Positions 12,231 to 19,359 of a stretch of 64,000 nucleotides of DNA are shown one piece after another (position 1 is the stretch's first letter; the number at the start of each line of letters is the position of its first letter). Below the pieces are notes generated by a model. The model ran no database searches. It had not been told where the DNA came from and saw only the letters and a program-made list of their open reading frames with translations. The DNA is from Thermomicrobiales bacterium. Its GTDB lineage: Bacteria > Chloroflexota > Chloroflexia > Thermomicrobiales > UBA6265. A program made the position numbers and the translations under genes. The stretch covers positions 62,001 through 126,000 of the forward strand of contig JAGQGU010000005.1 in the NCBI GenBank assembly GCA_020432165.1. The letters run 5' to 3'.

Positions 12231-12259
12231 CGCAACGACAATCAGGTTTTGTCACACTC

Positions 12260-12293
12260 GGGGAGGTGGTTGCCACTTCCCCGGTTGCGTTTT
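12260..12293 (+). terminator. Terminator after aspA
   Basis: GGGGAGGTGG (12260-12269) pairs with CCACTTCCCC (12273-12282) with a G-T pair. An outer pair, CGCAAC (12231) and GTTGCG (12284-12289), precedes TTTT (12290-12293). Confidence 0.55.
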
Positions 12294-12344
12294 GGTGGCA
12301 TTGCCGGATACTTCTGCCATGATGATCAGTGGGAGGATCAACTC

Positions 12345-13550
12345 ATGAAGAAGCTCGCAGTAATCGGTCTCGGGGCGCGCATTCGTTGGCTGGTTGGTCA
12401 ATTGGATGCATTCGACGCCGATCTCAAATTAGTTGCCGTTGTCGATCCAAACGAGGCCGGTGTTCGCAAACTGATGGAGCCCGAAAAGCTGGCCGATGTC
12501 GTTTTCTATCCCGATGTCGATACCATGCTGCTACAGGCGGAGCCGGATGCGGTCATGATCGGCACCACCTGCAATCTGCACACCGATTACGCCAAGAAAG
12601 TATTGGCGTACAACCTGCCGCTCTATCTGGAGAAACCAGTGAGCATCAGTATGGAGGAGACGGAGGATCTCTACCGGGCCTCGCTCTCCAGCAGCAGCGA
12701 GGTGGTGGTGAGCTTTCCGTTGCGATTGAGTCGACTCGCCGCGATGGCCAAGGAAGTCATCGATTCCGGTGTGCTTGGCAGTGTCGAGAATGTGCAGGCG
12801 GTCAATAATGTGCCCTTCTATGGATCCAACTATTTCCATGGCTGGATGCGGAATGACAAGCTGACTGGTGGTCTCTGGTTACAGAAGGCCACGCATGATC
12901 TGGATTACCTGACCTATCTGATCGGGCGGTTGCCGGAGCGCATTGTGGCGGTGGAGAGCAAGAATGTCTTCACCGGCGATATGCCCGCCGGTCTCTACTG
13001 CCTGGACTGTCCGAAGCAGGATACATGCCCGGAAAGTCAGAAGAATCTCTTCTATATGCAGGGCATCATCGAGGATATGCACCAGGCAAAAGACTTCTGG
13101 GACGGGCGCTGGCAGTGCAGCTTCGCCGTTGATACGGGAAACCACGATAGCGCTACTGCAATCCTGCAATACGCCGATGGTTCACACATGACCTATACCC
13201 AGAATTTCTACGCGCGCCGATCGGCAGCGAAACGAGGTGGTCGCTTCATTGGTTACAAGGGCACGATGGAGTTCGACTTCTACAGCGATGAAGTGGTCGT
13301 GCACTATCACCAGAGCGCCCGTACCGATCGCCTCCATCTGGATGCATTAGGTGGCGGTCATCATGGTGGCGATACGGAGTTGCTCCATGATTTCCTCGCG
13401 ATCGTGCACAAAACCGGAAAGAGTCGGGCGACGTTAATTGATGGGATCACCAGTGCCCGGTTGTGCCTGACCGCACGCGAAAGCTGTGAGACGAACGGGT
13501 TCGTACCATTCCAGCCACTGGAGAGTCTGGTAACCACTCCCTCTTTCTAA
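12345..13550 (+). CDS. Gfo/Idh/MocA-family oxidoreductase with a Cys-rich insertion
   Basis: 401 residues. The N-terminal Rossmann domain starts AVIGLGARIRWL and includes the NAD(P)-sugar dehydrogenase motif LPLYLEKPVS (EKP catalytic Lys). The C-terminal alpha/beta domain has KATHDLDYLTYLIG. At about residues 217-230 there is an insertion with four cysteines in all or nearly all of the arrangement CLDCPKQDTC (three visible in a row), as seen in a subgroup of this family, perhaps a zinc or Fe-S site. The substrate cannot be read; sugars, inositols or sugar acids are typical. ATG 12345 is preceded by GGGAGGA. The two Tat-exported proteins follow. Confidence 0.88.
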   Translation: MKKLAVIGLGARIRWLVGQLDAFDADLKLVAVVDPNEAGVRKLMEPEKLADVVFYPDVDTMLLQAEPDAVMIGTTCNLHTDYAKKVLAYNLPLYLEKPVSISMEETEDLYRASLSSSSEVVVSFPLRLSRLAAMAKEVIDSGVLGSVENVQAVNNVPFYGSNYFHGWMRNDKLTGGLWLQKATHDLDYLTYLIGRLPERIVAVESKNVFTGDMPAGLYCLDCPKQDTCPESQKNLFYMQGIIEDMHQAKDFWDGRWQCSFAVDTGNHDSATAILQYADGSHMTYTQNFYARRSAAKRGGRFIGYKGTMEFDFYSDEVVVHYHQSARTDRLHLDALGGGHHGGDTELLHDFLAIVHKTGKSRATLIDGITSARLCLTARESCETNGFVPFQPLESLVTTPSF

Positions 13551-13581: not shown

Positions 13582-13650
13582 TAACAAATAAGAGAGAATG
13601 AATATCCCAGATTCCGAGCGTCGTAACTGCCACCGCCAGGGGGAAAGACA

Positions 13651-14652
13651 TTGTCATTCAAAATCATCACGCCTCGCCCGGAGCTTCGTGGCAAGATCGA
13701 TAGACGGGACTTGATGAAGATTGGGCTGGCCGCCACCGGCGGCGCCATGATCCCTGCTGGCCTGCTGGCTCAGGCCGATGTGGTGCCCAGCGAGGACAAT
13801 CCCCCGAGCCAGAACAAATCGACACCCGAGGCTAATCTCGGTGGTTTGTGGGATCAGGGCATTCTGCCAGATCACCGTATTCTCCTCTATTACGGATTTC
13901 CGGAATTCGATGCCATGGGCATCCTCGGTGAATACACGCCGGAGGAACTGCTACCGAAGCTGGAGCAGCAACGCGCAGAGTATGAGGCTGTGCGTCCGGA
14001 TGATCGATCCTGGGTAACCGGGTTTGAGCTGATTGGTTCGGTGGCACAGGATCATCCCACGTCCGGTGGGCAGTATGTCGCCGATACCGACGGCAAGTGG
14101 CTGGATCAATACACCATCTTCACCCATGAAAATGACATGCAACTCTTCCTGGATGTCCAGATGGGATACCGAACGCCATACGAAGATTATTCTGGTCTCG
14201 AGCGCTGGCTACGGTATCCACATGTGCATTTGGCAATCGATCCGGAGTTCCACGTATTGGAGGCAGAGGGCGAGGTACCTGGCCAGGATCTCGGCTCCAT
14301 CGATGCCAGTGATGTAACCGAGGCGCAGAACTGGTTGGTGGGACTCAGCGATAAATATGGCCTGCCACGCAAGATGCTGATCATCCACCAGTTCCATGTC
14401 CATTCAGTTCAGAACAAGGAGAATATCGCCCCGGTCGATGGTGTAGACCTGATCATGAATGAAGACGGCCACGGCACACCAGAGATGAAGCTGGAGACCT
14501 ACAGAGTCATCATCACGGATTCTCCGATTCAGTACAACGGCTTCAAGATCTTTTACAAGACCGATATCGAGTTGTGGGAGAACAGCCGCCTGATGACGCC
14601 AGAGGATGTCTACGCGATGGATCCGGTGCCGGATGTGGTGAACTATCAGTAG
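13651..14652 (+). CDS. Tat-exported protein of unknown function, copy 1
   Basis: 333 residues beginning at a TTG preceded by GGGGGAAAG. The N-terminus has a twin-arginine signal (DRRDLMKIGLAATGG) ending near AQA. The mature part alternates beta strands and helices in a way that suggests a TIM barrel, with conserved blocks WVTGFELIGSVAQ, NDMQLFLDVQMG, HLAIDPEFHV, GLPRKMLIIHQF and LIMNEDGHGTPE. The pattern (AIDPE..., PRK-LIIHQF, N-DG-GTP) resembles a family of uncharacterised secreted proteins or lipoproteins also found in Actinobacteria, from memory. Acidic residues in DPE and NEDG are possible catalytic residues; no function is assigned. It is tandemly duplicated downstream. Confidence 0.82.
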   Translation: MSFKIITPRPELRGKIDRRDLMKIGLAATGGAMIPAGLLAQADVVPSEDNPPSQNKSTPEANLGGLWDQGILPDHRILLYYGFPEFDAMGILGEYTPEELLPKLEQQRAEYEAVRPDDRSWVTGFELIGSVAQDHPTSGGQYVADTDGKWLDQYTIFTHENDMQLFLDVQMGYRTPYEDYSGLERWLRYPHVHLAIDPEFHVLEAEGEVPGQDLGSIDASDVTEAQNWLVGLSDKYGLPRKMLIIHQFHVHSVQNKENIAPVDGVDLIMNEDGHGTPEMKLETYRVIITDSPIQYNGFKIFYKTDIELWENSRLMTPEDVYAMDPVPDVVNYQ

Positions 14653-14800
14653 GCGGGCATCCGCGTAGATGTGCGCATGCCAACTGGCGACCTAAACACG
14701 AGTTCAGTGAAACAACCGCTCCTTCGTTTGCCATAACGCTAAACTGAAGAGAGCCCCGGGGTTGATCAACGTGAGATCACCCAATACAGGAGGACACAAC

Positions 14801-15796
14801 TTGTCATTCAAAATCATTACGCCTCGCCCGGAGCTCCGTGGCAAGATCGACAGACGTGACTTGATGAAGATTGGGCTGGCCGCTACCGGCGGAGCCATGC
14901 TGCCTGCGGGTCTGTTCGCGCAGGCCGATGTTGTGCCCAGCGAGGATAATCCCCCGAGCCAGAATAAATCGACACCGGAAGCCAATATCGGTGGTCTGTG
15001 GGATCAGGGCATTCTGCCAGATCACCGCGTCCTCCTCTACTACGGATTCCCCGAGGTCGATACCATGGGCATCCTCGGCGAGTACTCGCCGGAGGATTTG
15101 CTACCGATTCTGGAACAACAAAAGGCCGAATACGAAGCCATTCGTCCGGACGATCGTTCCTGGGTAACCGGATTCGAGCTCATCGGTTCCGTAGCTCAGC
15201 GCGATCCGGGACCAGACGGCATGTATGTCGCCGATACCGGTGGCAATTGGCTGGATCAGTACACCATTTTCACCTACGAGAACGACATGCAGCTCTTCCT
15301 GGACGTCCAGATGGGACTGAAGGAGCCGCATGAGGACTATGAGGGTCTGGAGCGCTGGATGCGCTACCCCAATGTGCATCTGGCAATTGATCCGGAATTC
15401 CACATCCTTCCGGGAGAGGTTCCGGGCGAAGAGTTGGGGTCGATTGATGCCAGCGATGTTACCCGCGCCCAGGAATGGCTGGTGGGGCTCAGCGACAAAT
15501 ATGGTCTGCCGCGCAAGATGCTGATCATTCACCAGTTCAACGTCTACTCTGTTCAGAACAAGGAAAACATCGCCCCGGTCGATGGCGTGGATCTCATCAT
15601 GAATGAGGATGGCCACGGTACTCCCGAGATGAAGCTGGAAACCTACAGAGTCATCATTAAGGAGTCGCCGATCCAGTATAACGGCTTCAAGATCTTCTAC
15701 ACGGGTGATGTCGAGTGGCACGAAAATAGCCGCCTGATGACACCGGAAGATGTCTACGCCATGGATCCGGTACCGGACGTGGTGAACTATCAGTAG
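14801..15796 (+). CDS. Tat-exported protein of unknown function, copy 2
   Basis: 331 residues, a tandem paralogue of the preceding gene; by eye only about 45 positions differ. The first 45 residues including the RR signal and the last 25 (ending DPVPDVVNYQ) are nearly unchanged. Most differences fall between residues about 80-190 and near the C-terminal strand that reads FKIFYTGDVEW here. The TTG start is conserved and has a strong AGGAGG 7 bases upstream, so it is not a reading artefact. The 148-base spacer between copies has no long repeat. A strong terminator follows. Confidence 0.82.
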   Translation: MSFKIITPRPELRGKIDRRDLMKIGLAATGGAMLPAGLFAQADVVPSEDNPPSQNKSTPEANIGGLWDQGILPDHRVLLYYGFPEVDTMGILGEYSPEDLLPILEQQKAEYEAIRPDDRSWVTGFELIGSVAQRDPGPDGMYVADTGGNWLDQYTIFTYENDMQLFLDVQMGLKEPHEDYEGLERWMRYPNVHLAIDPEFHILPGEVPGEELGSIDASDVTRAQEWLVGLSDKYGLPRKMLIIHQFNVYSVQNKENIAPVDGVDLIMNEDGHGTPEMKLETYRVIIKESPIQYNGFKIFYTGDVEWHENSRLMTPEDVYAMDPVPDVVNYQ

Positions 15797-15809: not shown

Positions 15810-15838
15810 AGAACCCGGCCAGGCGGCCGGGTTCTTTG
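15810..15838. terminator. Shared terminator between convergent genes
   Basis: AGAACCCGGCC (15810-15820) pairs perfectly with GGCCGGGTTCT (15825-15835) around AGGC, followed by TTG. It lies between the tandem Tat proteins and the converging FAD oxidoreductase and may serve both. Confidence 0.75.
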
Positions 15839-15854
15839 CTATGCACGCCATTCC

Positions 15855-17003
15855 CTATCCCGCGGAGGGATCAATCACTCTATCCCGCTGCTCATCTGAA
15901 AAACGATCAGCGGCAAAAGCATCCAACGGAATCGAAGGAGTGCCATCCAGCACCAACTCGCTGACGAGCTGTCCGGTAATCGGCGAGAGGGCAAAGCCAT
16001 GGCCACAGAAGCCGGCGACGACGGTGATTCCTTCATATCCGGGGAGATTCGCGATAATTGGCACATCGTCCGGGCAGAATGCTTCCATGCCAACCCAGGC
16101 GCGCTCGATATCCGCCTTTCCAACCATCGGGAAGACATCGGAGGCTGTTTGGTAACTTCCCTGCACGCTCTCGTCACGCACAGTACCCTGACCGCTATCC
16201 ATATCGATATCACCAGGCCAGCCGCCACCAATCAGATAATTGCCTTCGCGTAGTTGCTTCAGACTCAGCGGACGATCAGCAGCGCCAACGACCTGCTTGA
16301 GCAGTGATGGCATTGGTTGGGTGAGGATCATCTGCAAGCCATGAACAGTGATCGGCAGGTCAATACCCAATGGCTGCACGAGTTCGCGGGTCCAGGCACC
16401 GGTCGCCAAGACGACGTGATCGGCGAACAGCGTCTCATTTCTCGTCCTGACACCGATGATGCGATCACCATCACGAACCAAATCGAGAATCTCAACGCCT
16501 TCGCGGATGTCTGCGCCAGCACGCTCGGCGGCACGAGCGAAGGACTGGGTCGTGATCTTGGGATCGGCGTGACCATCGTTAGCGGTGTAGCTACCGGCGA
16601 TGAATTGAGGAGCAAGGCCAGGGCTGAGCTCGAAGAGGGCTGATCCCTCAACCATCTCGATCTCAAGTCCTAGCTGCCGCTGCTTCTCGACGGAGGCCTC
16701 CCCCACCGCTACCTGCTCTTCGGTGGCATAGGCAACCAGATGTCCATTGCGGTAATAGTGCAAATCGGCATCGAGCTCATCCTCAAGTGTCAGCCAACGC
16801 TTGTTCGCTGCGATCGCGAGGGGCATCTCCCGCGGATCGCGTCCCTGTTGGCGAACACCACCGGCGCTCGCGCCAGAGGCGACCGCGGCAATGGAACGCG
16901 CTTCCACAAGCGTTACGCTCTCGCCGCGCCGGGCGATATGCCAGGCAATAGACGAGCCCGCAACACCACCGCCAACAACGATGACCGATTGATGATTCTG
17001 CAT
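15855..17003 (-). CDS. FAD-dependent oxidoreductase (DAO/glycine oxidase-sarcosine oxidase type)
   Basis: 382 residues. The N-terminal FAD-binding motif is VIVVGGGVAGSSIAWHIARRG with an acidic residue ending the second strand (LVEA). Further DAO-family marks are ASGASAGGVRQQ, DHVVLATGAWTREL and the C-terminal VVAGFCGHGFALSPITGQLVSELV, where the isoalloxazine is held. The enzyme likely oxidises an amine such as sarcosine, glycine or another amino acid; the substrate is not evident. ATG 17003 has GGAGG five bases upstream. Confidence 0.9.
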   Translation of the reverse strand: MQNHQSVIVVGGGVAGSSIAWHIARRGESVTLVEARSIAAVASGASAGGVRQQGRDPREMPLAIAANKRWLTLEDELDADLHYYRNGHLVAYATEEQVAVGEASVEKQRQLGLEIEMVEGSALFELSPGLAPQFIAGSYTANDGHADPKITTQSFARAAERAGADIREGVEILDLVRDGDRIIGVRTRNETLFADHVVLATGAWTRELVQPLGIDLPITVHGLQMILTQPMPSLLKQVVGAADRPLSLKQLREGNYLIGGGWPGDIDMDSGQGTVRDESVQGSYQTASDVFPMVGKADIERAWVGMEAFCPDDVPIIANLPGYEGITVVAGFCGHGFALSPITGQLVSELVLDGTPSIPLDAFAADRFSDEQRDRVIDPSAG

Positions 17004-17116
17004 GAGACCTCCAGAGATTACATTCGTTAACAGGATGGCATTCCAGGTCTGCGGAACGGACAACAAGGCTTGGGGGCAAATCTCTCCGCCAATATCAACG
17101 GCTACACCGTCGATTC

Positions 17117-17148
17117 GGGCGGATACCTTTCAGGATCCGCCCCCTACG
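17117..17148. repeat. CGTAGG-tag hairpin element, 3' of the mutase gene
   Basis: GGGCGGAT (17117-17124) pairs with ATCCGCCC around ACCTTTCAGG; the tag CCTACG is at 17143-17148, 15 bases from the mutase stop. Confidence 0.85.
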
Positions 17149-17162
17149 TGATGGCACTCACC

Positions 17163-18740
17163 CTATCCCTCGGCGCGATGCTCGCCGAAGACATCACGCA
17201 GGGCATTGGCAACTTGCCCCAACGTGGCCCCGGCGAGCAGTGCCTGCTTCATGTAGGGCAGCAGGTTGTCTTCGCCATTGGCGACATTGCGCACTGTTTG
17301 CAGGGCAGCATCAACCGCCTCATGGTCCTGATGCTCCTTGTACGCCGTCGTACGAGCCACCTGGCGGGCAACCATCTCCTGATCAATCTTGTGGAGGCTG
17401 ATCGGCGAATCGCTCTTGTCTGCGTCCGCATAGCGATTCACACCGATCACGATCTCGGCACCGGAGCTGCGTGCAACTTCCTTGCGATAGGCGTTCTCGG
17501 CGATGGCATTTTGCACGAAGCCGTGTTCGATCGCCTGTACTGCCCCGCCGCGCTCATCGATCGCGTCAATCCATTCCTGTGCCTTGGCCTCGAGCTGATC
17601 GGTCAACGATTCCACAAAGTACGATCCCGCCAGCGGATCGACCGTTTCCGAGATGCCTGTCTCCTCCGCCAGAATCTGCTGGGTGCGCAAGGCCAAAGTC
17701 GCCGCCTCGGCGGTGGGAATGGCCAGTGCTTCATCGTAGCCATTGGTATGCAGACTCTGGGTACCACCGAGCACCGCGCTAAGCGCCTGATAGGCCACAC
17801 GGACGACGTTATTCAGCGGCTGCTGGGCTGTGAGGGTGACACCACCAGTCTGGGTATGGAAACGAAGCATCTGCGCCTTGGCGCTGGTGACCCCGAATCG
17901 CTCCTTCATAATGCGAGCCCACATCCGCCGGGCAGCACGGAACTTCGCTGCCTCCTCGAAGAGGTTGGAATGCGAGGCAAAGAAGAAGCTGATACGGCCG
18001 CCAACGGTATCAGCATCAAGGCCACAATCGATCGCGGCCTGCATGTAGGCAATACCATCGCTAAGCGTGAAGGCGATCTCCTGGGCGGCGCTGGAGCCAG
18101 CTTCGCGGATGTGATACCCGCTCACAGAGATCGTGTTCCACATCGGCATGTTTTCACCGCAATAGGCGAAAGTATCCGTTACGAGACGCATGCTTGGTCG
18201 TGGCGGGTAGATATAGGTACCACGCGCCGCATACTCCTTGAGGATGTCGTTTTGGATCGTGCCACCGAGCTTCTTCGCATCGGCACCGCGCTCCTCCGCC
18301 ACGATCTGATACATCAGGAGCAGCATGGAGGCCGGAGCGTTGATGGTCATGGAAGTGGTGACCGCCTCCTGATCGATACCATCGAAGAGAATGCGCATAT
18401 CATCCAGCGTGCTCACCGCCACACCGACGCGTCCGACTTCGCCAAAGGCGCGCTTGTCATCCGAATCCAGACCGAGTTGCGTCGGCAGATCGAAGGCGAC
18501 GCTCAGACCGGAGACACCGCGTTCGAGCAACAGGCGGTAGCGGCGGTTGCTATCCTCGGCGCTACTAAAGCCGGCGTACTGACGCATGGTCCAGCGGCGA
18601 CTGCGATACATCCCGGGGTGAATCCCACGCGTAAACGGATAGGTGCCCGGTGCCGGGAGATCGTACGGATGATCCGGCATGGAATAGACCGGCTCGATAT
18701 CGATACCGGAATCGGTAATAATCTCGCGATCAGATGCCAT
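17163..18740 (-). CDS. Methylmalonyl-CoA mutase, large (substrate-binding) subunit
   Basis: 525 residues forming the TIM-barrel substrate domain only; the C-terminal cobalamin-binding domain (DxHxxG) of full-length mutases is absent, so it should pair with a separate small B12 subunit not in this window. Substrate signatures are HPGMYRSRRWTMRQYAGF (Tyr of the GMY type), PPRPSMRLVTDTFAY (Arg) and SVSGYHIREAG (TyrHis pair); Tyr plus Arg argue for methylmalonyl-CoA rather than isobutyryl-CoA. It converts methylmalonyl-CoA to succinyl-CoA. ATG 18740 has GGAGGAAG just upstream. It overlaps the HD gene by 11 bases and follows the epimerase gene in the same operon. Confidence 0.93.
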   Translation of the reverse strand: MASDREIITDSGIDIEPVYSMPDHPYDLPAPGTYPFTRGIHPGMYRSRRWTMRQYAGFSSAEDSNRRYRLLLERGVSGLSVAFDLPTQLGLDSDDKRAFGEVGRVGVAVSTLDDMRILFDGIDQEAVTTSMTINAPASMLLLMYQIVAEERGADAKKLGGTIQNDILKEYAARGTYIYPPRPSMRLVTDTFAYCGENMPMWNTISVSGYHIREAGSSAAQEIAFTLSDGIAYMQAAIDCGLDADTVGGRISFFFASHSNLFEEAAKFRAARRMWARIMKERFGVTSAKAQMLRFHTQTGGVTLTAQQPLNNVVRVAYQALSAVLGGTQSLHTNGYDEALAIPTAEAATLALRTQQILAEETGISETVDPLAGSYFVESLTDQLEAKAQEWIDAIDERGGAVQAIEHGFVQNAIAENAYRKEVARSSGAEIVIGVNRYADADKSDSPISLHKIDQEMVARQVARTTAYKEHQDHEAVDAALQTVRNVANGEDNLLPYMKQALLAGATLGQVANALRDVFGEHRAEG

Positions 18741-19359
18741 CACTTCCTCCTTTTGCAGCGAGTTGTCTGCTCGTCTCGTCCTCATTCAGAAAACCTTGTT
18801 CCACTGCTGCCAACACCAGCCACTCGGCCAGGCTCCATAGCGCAGGGAACTCCTCGATCAATGGCTGCTTGCGTTCGACCAATCGTGTTGGTGTGATATC
18901 GGCAACACGATCGTGGCCAATGGCGGGTGGGAACCAGCTCATAATCATCGGATGGAGAGCATCAATGGCACGAGCGAATCGGGCTTCGGTCGTCTCCTGT
19001 CGCTGAAACTCCTGCCACAATGCATCAATGCGAGAGCGCTGATCAGCAGGCAACATGGCGGTGAGTTTTAGCCCGGCCGCCCACTCTCGAGCCTCGACAC
19101 CGTCCTGCGCATCCCAAATCGGAACATCCCCCGCGAACACCTCGACCAGATCATGCATCGTGAGCAGATCGCGTACCTTGTTATGATCAATTCCATCCGG
19201 AGCAGCATCAGCAAAAAGCATTGCCAACAAGGTGGTATGCCAGACATGCTCGGCTACGGTCTCAAACCTGGGTTCATTCCGAATCCAGGTAGAACGTTGC
19301 TCCGCCTTCAGTGCGTCCGTTGCCACAAAGAAATCGAGACGATCCCTGAGCGCGCTCAT
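18730..19359 (-). CDS. HD-domain phosphohydrolase (YfbR-like)
   Basis: 209 residues of the HD superfamily. The metal-binding residues are in ETVAEHVWHT (first His) and LLTMHDLVEVFAGD (His-Asp pair). A late Asp (RAIDALHPMI) completes the set. Relatives hydrolyse 5'-deoxynucleotides or other phosphates. It overlaps the epimerase stop by ATGA and the mutase start by 11 bases, so it is translated with the propionate genes; whether it acts in that pathway (for example removing a dead-end nucleotide) is unknown. Confidence 0.85.
   Translation of the reverse strand: MSALRDRLDFFVATDALKAEQRSTWIRNEPRFETVAEHVWHTTLLAMLFADAAPDGIDHNKVRDLLTMHDLVEVFAGDVPIWDAQDGVEAREWAAGLKLTAMLPADQRSRIDALWQEFQRQETTEARFARAIDALHPMIMSWFPPAIGHDRVADITPTRLVERKQPLIEEFPALWSLAEWLVLAAVEQGFLNEDETSRQLAAKGGSDGI

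Follow-up and report, generated by a model that had tools for sequence, protein, structure and literature searches.

A tandem pair of Tat-signalled proteins with a predicted (beta/alpha)8 barrel in Thermomicrobiales: candidate envelope-glycan hydrolases of a widespread family

Among described barrel proteins, the glycoside hydrolases of families GH25 and GH18 both carry a D-x-E motif at strand beta4, and Rv2525c is a barrel exported through Tat with a presumed action on peptidoglycan. The GHL10 domain of Cwp19 from Clostridioides difficile is described as having slow peptidoglycan hydrolase activity, with Asp195-Asp196 in its putative active site (PMC5765458). Here we analyze two adjacent genes whose products recall these proteins in parts of their architecture, contained in a stretch of 64,000 nucleotides from a Thermomicrobiales bacterium (hereinafter the window; contig JAGQGU010000005.1, positions 62,001 to 126,000). 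Copy 1 (13651..14652, + strand) encodes 333 amino acids and its paralogue copy 2 (14801..15796, + strand) encodes 331; both ORFs are complete, lie on the same strand with a spacing of 148 bp and begin with TTG, as originally predicted, the mechanically called ORF of copy 2 starting 13 codons earlier, at 14762. We propose that they are paired Tat-exported (beta/alpha)8-barrel enzymes most likely hydrolyzing an envelope glycan, a proposal in which our confidence is evenly divided.

The two proteins are identical at 289 of 331 aligned residues (87%) and differ at 44 of 333 alignment columns, two of which are gaps (a single 2-residue gap), in agreement with the original prediction of near-identical tandem ORFs differing at about 45 of some 330 positions. 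The prediction that the signal and the C-terminus are almost unchanged and that the changes gather in the middle of the protein is likewise borne out, with 3 differences in residues 1-67 (67 positions), 32 in residues 68-230 (163 positions), 9 in residues 231-333 (103 positions) and none beyond residue 309. At the nucleotide level 38, 18 and 126 differences fall on the first, second and third codon positions, respectively, giving a dN of about 0.08, a dS of 0.94-1.05 by three methods and a dN/dS of about 0.08; at the 5' end dS is 0.42, against about 1 overall, a possible trace of gene conversion. With dN this low and dS this high, the copies are alike through conservation at the protein level and not through recency.

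The phylogenetic evidence points in the same direction. Two relatives, L032 and L033, occur in one bin of the same genus (ACE_NR_CHLO14), and in one tree copy 1 groups with L032 (supports 93/82) and copy 2 with L033 (94/76), none of these values reaching the star of the tool; in the other tree copy 1 again groups with L032 (86/99) and the grouping of copy 2 with L033 is not resolved. A sister relationship of copy 1 and copy 2 was rejected (AU p 0.017). Copy 1 and L032 additionally have in common a 2-residue insertion after DPEFH, which copy 2 and L033 lack and which is found in no other row of a 29-row alignment, letters standing there in a few distant rows of the 81-row one. The L033 locus also shows the gene order of the window, namely a Gfo/Idh gene, a single family gene, a FAD oxidoreductase and a methylmalonyl-CoA mutase (the last two identified by eye), and L032 is located elsewhere, apart from L033. 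The grouping with L032 and L033, the shared insertion and the gene order therefore place the duplication before the split from the sister species, and one copy probably moved in one of the lineages. This and the dS values uphold the earlier view that the duplication is not very recent. Two congeners (G001 and G002) have one Tat-type and one YkuD-linked copy each, and as these genomes are 72% complete further copies may be missing from them.

The shared TTG start had been interpreted as selection for reduced initiation, both copies being credited with a strong Shine-Dalgarno sequence. The latter holds for copy 2, which is preceded by AGGAGG at 14788..14793 (+ strand), and fails for copy 1, where the Shine-Dalgarno-like AGGGGGAAAG at 13638..13647 (+ strand) is weaker than AGGAGG and scores 3 on a simple scale on which AGGAGG scores 6; between the upstream stop and 13651 copy 1 has no alternative ATG, GTG or TTG. 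TTG starts 5 of the 29 window genes with a clear Shine-Dalgarno sequence by a simple rule, copy 2 being among the 5; copy 1 lies below this filter, and a looser one admitting both copies finds TTG in 8 of 34 window genes. As TTG is not rare among the window genes, a TTG start by itself says little, the interpretation as reduced initiation is not supported, and TTG was rejected as a special feature of the pair. The orthologues of the sister species start with GTG (L032) and TTG (L033), and a partial relative in the same genus (L013) with TTG; non-ATG starts are thus retained across this small clade, with nothing in the sequences pointing to selection on initiation.

No family member beyond the two copies was found in the window's genome. 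Among near genomes a member was found in 50 of 101 (the own genome counted) and in a phylum-wide draw in 80 of 301, and a scan across the species genomes of GTDB yielded 435 confirmed relatives, 80 of which were kept. These come from Thermomicrobiales and other Chloroflexota and from strains or bins that carry the labels Gemmatimonadota, Bacteroidota, Patescibacteria, Bacillota, Rubrobacter and Acidobacteria. An alignment of 81 rows (A3), made up of the two copies and 79 loci (all 80 apart from the partial L056), has Q immediately before the stop in all 81 rows and YQ in 77. In Pfam the sole match of the two copies was TAT_signal, which stayed under its cut-off, and 29 members, 9 further ones and the family consensus had no above-cut-off family in the barrel; NCBIfam and PHROGs gave nothing for the two copies, on which alone PHROGs was run, and NCBIfam gave scattered weak matches for the 81 members (best E 0.017). 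A PDB sequence search returned matches at chance level, and in the open-access literature we found no paper that names the family or contains the two homologue accessions given below or their locus tags. This is a large family, present in many phyla, for which no Pfam, NCBIfam or PHROGs model fits among the members scanned.

Three members are plasmid-borne (Gemmatirosa, Pantoea stewartii and Cnuibacter), and the two that are annotated, both from phyla other than that of the window, are called 'hypothetical protein': WP_006120875.1 of Pantoea stewartii plasmid pDSJ09, which covers 98% of the family consensus at 46.9% identity, and WP_085021668.1 of a Cnuibacter physcomitrellae plasmid, which covers 100% of it at 38.3% identity. 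On pDSJ09, a conjugative plasmid, the family gene (L123) lies amid IS66 and IS630 transposase genes, a setting which suggests transfer into a proteobacterium. A 30% identical relative (L188) is found on an unverified, phage-labelled fecal scaffold (MT835659.1), which is possibly a contig of bacterial origin. In another family of the phylum, Tat-signalled members independently occur in tandem as arrays of two or three, 74-80% identical (L125, L126 and L128; G198:C21, G110:C4 and G233:C25), which end in VVVA and not in YQ, and a tandem pair with 57% identity (L127, 1604-3690) shows H246 replaced by Y and, in one copy, DNE for DPE at beta4.

Both copies begin with a predicted twin-arginine signal in residues 1-42 (13651..13776 in copy 1 and 14801..14926 in copy 2, + strand). 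The motif K-I-D-R-R-D-L-M-K followed by a hydrophobic stretch can be read directly in the sequence, and copy 1 has RRDLMK, a hydrophobic core and AQA before D43, where the cleavage site is inferred. The twin-arginine motif, the hydrophobic core and the AXA site are the sequence features of a Tat substrate; the Pfam TAT_signal model stays below its cut-off of 22.7 bits in both (16.2 in copy 1, 18.1 in copy 2), and TatC is encoded in the window's genome. The Tat-type signal of the original prediction is thus sustained. Across the family, a crude rule classifies the N-termini of 80 of 81 members as lipobox, RR-type or hydrophobic, the remaining one being cut at a contig end; 22 of the 81 are called RR-type by this rule, which also catches RR motifs in upstream open frames. 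A single clade of Tat-signalled members was rejected (AU p 1.35e-24) in a test that used 12 Tat labels assigned by eye from the N-termini in place of the crude rule. With these labels at least three changes are forced on the tree, which argues that Tat-type members arose several times.

Structure prediction with AlphaFold2 gave a (beta/alpha)8 barrel for copy 1 (pLDDT 94.9, pTM 0.93) and the same arrangement for a second member, from Bacteroidota (pLDDT 96.1, pTM 0.94); both models have the eight barrel strands of a TIM barrel and no long helix between beta5 and beta6. The pair had been described as of unknown fold, with TIM-barrel hydrolases named for comparison: the barrel type is now predicted with high confidence, and none of the searches assigned the pair to an enzyme family. 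The two acidic motifs that had been put forward as a putative active site fall at strand ends of the predicted barrel, AIDPEFH (14233..14253, + strand) at the end of beta4, with D197 and E199 as the proposed catalytic acids, and NEDGHGTP (14458..14481, + strand) at the end of beta6, with D272; D197 and E199 are conserved in all 81 aligned members and D272 in 80, in line with that proposal. Of 16 polar positions with an identity of 95% or more in the family, 11 are found where the strands end at the catalytic rim, a zone of 53 among 264 positions (p 1.6e-5, and 6.5e-5 when set against polar positions alone), and 3 in an equally large zone on the opposite face of the barrel. The rim set includes at least one residue from each of the eight strands (Y81, Q133, D168, Q170, D197, E199, H246, D272, K299, Y332 and Q333). 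As the terminal YQ forms the end of strand 8 in the predicted fold, the fixed C-terminus would also be explained. Y81, D168, D197, E199, K241, D272, K280 and K299 are constant in the nine distant tandem members examined, which belong to other classes of the phylum; Q133 is changed in all nine, Y332 and Q333 in 7, and Q170, H193 and H246 in 2. As judged from the models, these conserved rim residues resemble the active site expected of an enzyme with such a fold.

The differences between the two copies are distributed around this putative site. The 42 differences past residue 40 all avoid the 39 columns that are 95% or more identical, and the beta-alpha loops of the active-site face (the rim loops) differ at 26 of 108 positions against 15 of 151 elsewhere (p 0.002), these loops being no more variable in the family as a whole (mean entropy 1.63 versus 1.75). 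The bias ratio, computed for pairs that are not independent of one another, is 2.42 to 3.21 for paralogue pairs, 2.16 and 1.66 for orthologue pairs and 0.83 for an outgroup pair. Since orthologues show the bias as well, if somewhat more weakly, it does not by itself demonstrate a division of labor between the copies, and as proof of one it is weakened. Eight paralogue-specific differences are common to the sister species, and 6 of these lie in rim loops. These shared differences bear on whether the copies are simply redundant, the duplication raising dosage and the TTG starts tuning it down, an account compatible with any reading of the activity. The 87% identity, the near-identical signals and the result of a terminator scan, which listed no terminator between the copies on their strand, would accord with it. 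We regard it as unlikely, given that the split of the copies predates that of the sister species and both were kept under strong constraint (dN/dS about 0.08; AU p 0.017), that the sister species shares the paralogue-specific differences, mostly in rim loops, and that TTG is not rare in the window. With the site kept and the loops around it different, the copies may instead act on different forms of a substrate.

The original prediction would have been refuted by a confident structural match with an already known enzyme family; searches with Foldseek and VIA-align found none. Foldseek searches of PDB and BFVD with the copy 1 model produced nothing at E 1e-3 (best E 6.2e-3), and the second model gave five matches at E <= 1e-3 (best 2.8e-4, TM 0.40-0.45) to unrelated enzymes, namely a designed GH101 core, an O-GlcNAcase and three KDO8P synthase chains. 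In the best 50 rows of VIA-align, which are redundant, were pre-selected by Foldseek and draw on a PDB in which glycoside hydrolases are common, barrels of glycoside-hydrolase type, as judged from titles, account for 41 rows in the case of copy 1 and 42 in that of the second model, closely followed by class II aldolases. Z values to solved barrels in these rows range from 11 to 14 for each model; GH5, GH18, GH164 and class II aldolases are separated by no more than about one Z unit, several families being tied, and for the second model Cwp19 ranks first (Z 14.1, rmsd 3.2, 212 aligned). Profile-profile comparison by hhalign with Chloroflexota domains returned probabilities of 0.1% for GH25 (PF01183; 16 domains), which was also absent from the Pfam scans, 0.1% for Rv2525c-like proteins (PF08924; 9), 1.1% for DUF4015 (PF13200; 12), 0.6% for GHL10 (PF02638; 15) and 0.1% for GH18 (PF00704; 14). 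The controls gave 77% for GH25 with Rv2525c-like, 78% for GH18 with GHL10 and 98.6% for GHL10 with DUF4015; GH18 with GH25, also two barrels, gave 0.2%, and a negative result is therefore compatible with remote kinship. On the predicted models the family is built like the glycoside hydrolases, yet has no detectable membership in GH25, GH18, GHL10, Rv2525c-like or DUF4015. Four genomes of one genus (G110, G147, G155 and G198) have 12 to 14 GHL10-like matches each, the others in the draw having at most 3 among the matches listed.

Two other readings of the barrel bear directly on these neighbors. The proteins could be enzymes other than glycosidases, either metal-dependent hydrolases (deacylases or phosphodiesterases) or lyases, with D168, D197, E199, H246 and D272 as ligands of a metal. 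The Asp/Glu/His residues that stand where beta3 to beta6 end would be well suited to this, the fold neighbors include class II aldolases and KDO8P synthases, and Tat, the predicted export route of the pair, often carries cofactor proteins. However, two distant members have Y in place of H246 and retain D168, D197, E199 and D272, other members look lipoprotein-like or Sec-type-anchored, so that cytoplasmic loading of a cofactor would not be generally needed, and most of the listed fold neighbors are glycoside hydrolases; we give this reading a minor though appreciable chance. Less probable still is a non-catalytic barrel that binds glycan or serves as a scaffold at the cell surface. No activity is known for the family, and some GH18-fold proteins do not cut, the chitinase-like Ym2, which has a lectin role, being among the neighbors of the second model. 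Lectin versions usually lose the catalytic acids, and here every one of the 81 aligned and 9 distant members has the acid pair D197/E199, which argues for catalysis.

The gene neighborhoods were examined for further indications of function. Directly upstream of copy 1 is a Gfo/Idh/MocA oxidoreductase gene (12249..13550, + strand), relatives of which adjoin the family gene in L033, L034 and L035, and downstream lies a convergent gene for a FAD-dependent oxidoreductase (DAO; 15855..17066, - strand), with a look-alike in L033 (from sequence, by eye); both flanking genes thus encode oxidoreductases, and no cell-wall gene adjoins the pair. Between the convergent genes, directly after copy 2, a G+C-rich hairpin with an 11-bp stem (15810..15835) is a possible terminator, which has few T after the stem and is not listed by the terminator scan. 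A 608-codon frame at 17070-18896, opposite a methylmalonyl-CoA mutase-like gene (by eye), is most likely a shadow ORF. Elsewhere in Thermomicrobiales and other Chloroflexota the commonest domain is YkuD (L,D-transpeptidase), in 7 of 113 neighbor ORFs. With YkuD positions counted where their contig also carries a family gene, at least 10 of 46 family genes in 35 genomes have YkuD no more than 4.6 kb upstream on their own strand, and for at least 7 the distance is 0.9 kb or less; genomes of Thermomicrobiales and their kin have 2 to 9 YkuD matches each among the matches listed. By eye, the YkuD-linked family genes look like membrane-anchored paralogues. At the remaining loci, with 145 neighbor ORFs, a polysaccharide deacetylase occurs in 5 and a beta-lactamase fold in 3, and such genes adjoin the family gene in a Bacteroidota group. 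The neighbor ORFs were taken by a longest-ORF rule that includes shadow ORFs and kept the target ORF at 78 of 79 loci (all except L061), and both counts exclude ORFs below 100 or above 1000 amino acids and the loci L032, L033, L056 and L061. The neighborhood links favor the cell envelope, but they are confined to related lineages and were not observed at the window pair.

Based on these observations the two genes are a real, old and constrained pair, and their products, predicted to be exported barrel proteins, are very likely enzymes. Envelope-glycan hydrolysis is the likeliest activity, with a chance that we judge about even: it is favored by the predicted fold, the rim site, the fold neighbors, the N-termini, the neighbor genes and the loop-biased divergence, and it is called into doubt by the lack of a confident fold family, the negative profile comparisons, the oxidoreductase flanks and the lineage-confined links. 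Under the glycan-hydrolase proposal each protein would fold in the cytoplasm and cross the membrane by Tat, the signal would probably be cleaved after A42, and the mature protein would act outside the membrane. The C-terminal rim of the barrel would carry Y81, Q133, D168-x-Q170, D197-P-E199, H246, D272, K299 and Q333 and would most likely hydrolyze a glycosidic bond of a cell-envelope glycan, with E199 at beta4 as putative acid/base and D168, D197 and D272 as its possible partners. The copies would share this site and differ mostly in the surrounding loops, and might act on different substrate forms or at different sites.

More tentatively, and with doubts that outweigh our confidence, the family may represent a not yet described group of extracytoplasmic barrel enzymes that remodel envelope glycan from Chloroflexota to Bacteroidota and Patescibacteria and have repeatedly switched between membrane-anchored and Tat-released forms, the genome studied here having a second released copy in place of the anchored paralogue, linked to an L,D-transpeptidase, that is found in two congeners. 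A conserved exported family with a clear candidate active site in several phyla, including Patescibacteria, offers a target in the search for new envelope or glycan activities. The pair itself amounts to a natural experiment, in which the candidate catalytic residues and the export signal are equal and the rim loops are different.

GH84 O-GlcNAcase, a barrel, is the first Foldseek row for copy 1, but at an E of 6.2e-3. The Rv2525c-like proteins (PF08924) and the GH25 lysozymes (PF01183), at profile values of 0.1% for both, are alike in the Tat-exported barrel and in the D-x-E motif at beta4, respectively, and the GH18 chitinases, with a profile relation of 0.1%, in the barrel and the beta4 D-x-E motif. 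Cwp19 is an S-layer protein with other conserved residues, is absent from the best 50 rows of copy 1, and shows 6% identity to the family in the aligned part, the profiles being unrelated (0.6%); its functional domain (GHL10, PF02638, PDB 5oq3), which gave the highest Z of the second model, is likewise a (beta/alpha)8 barrel located outside the membrane.
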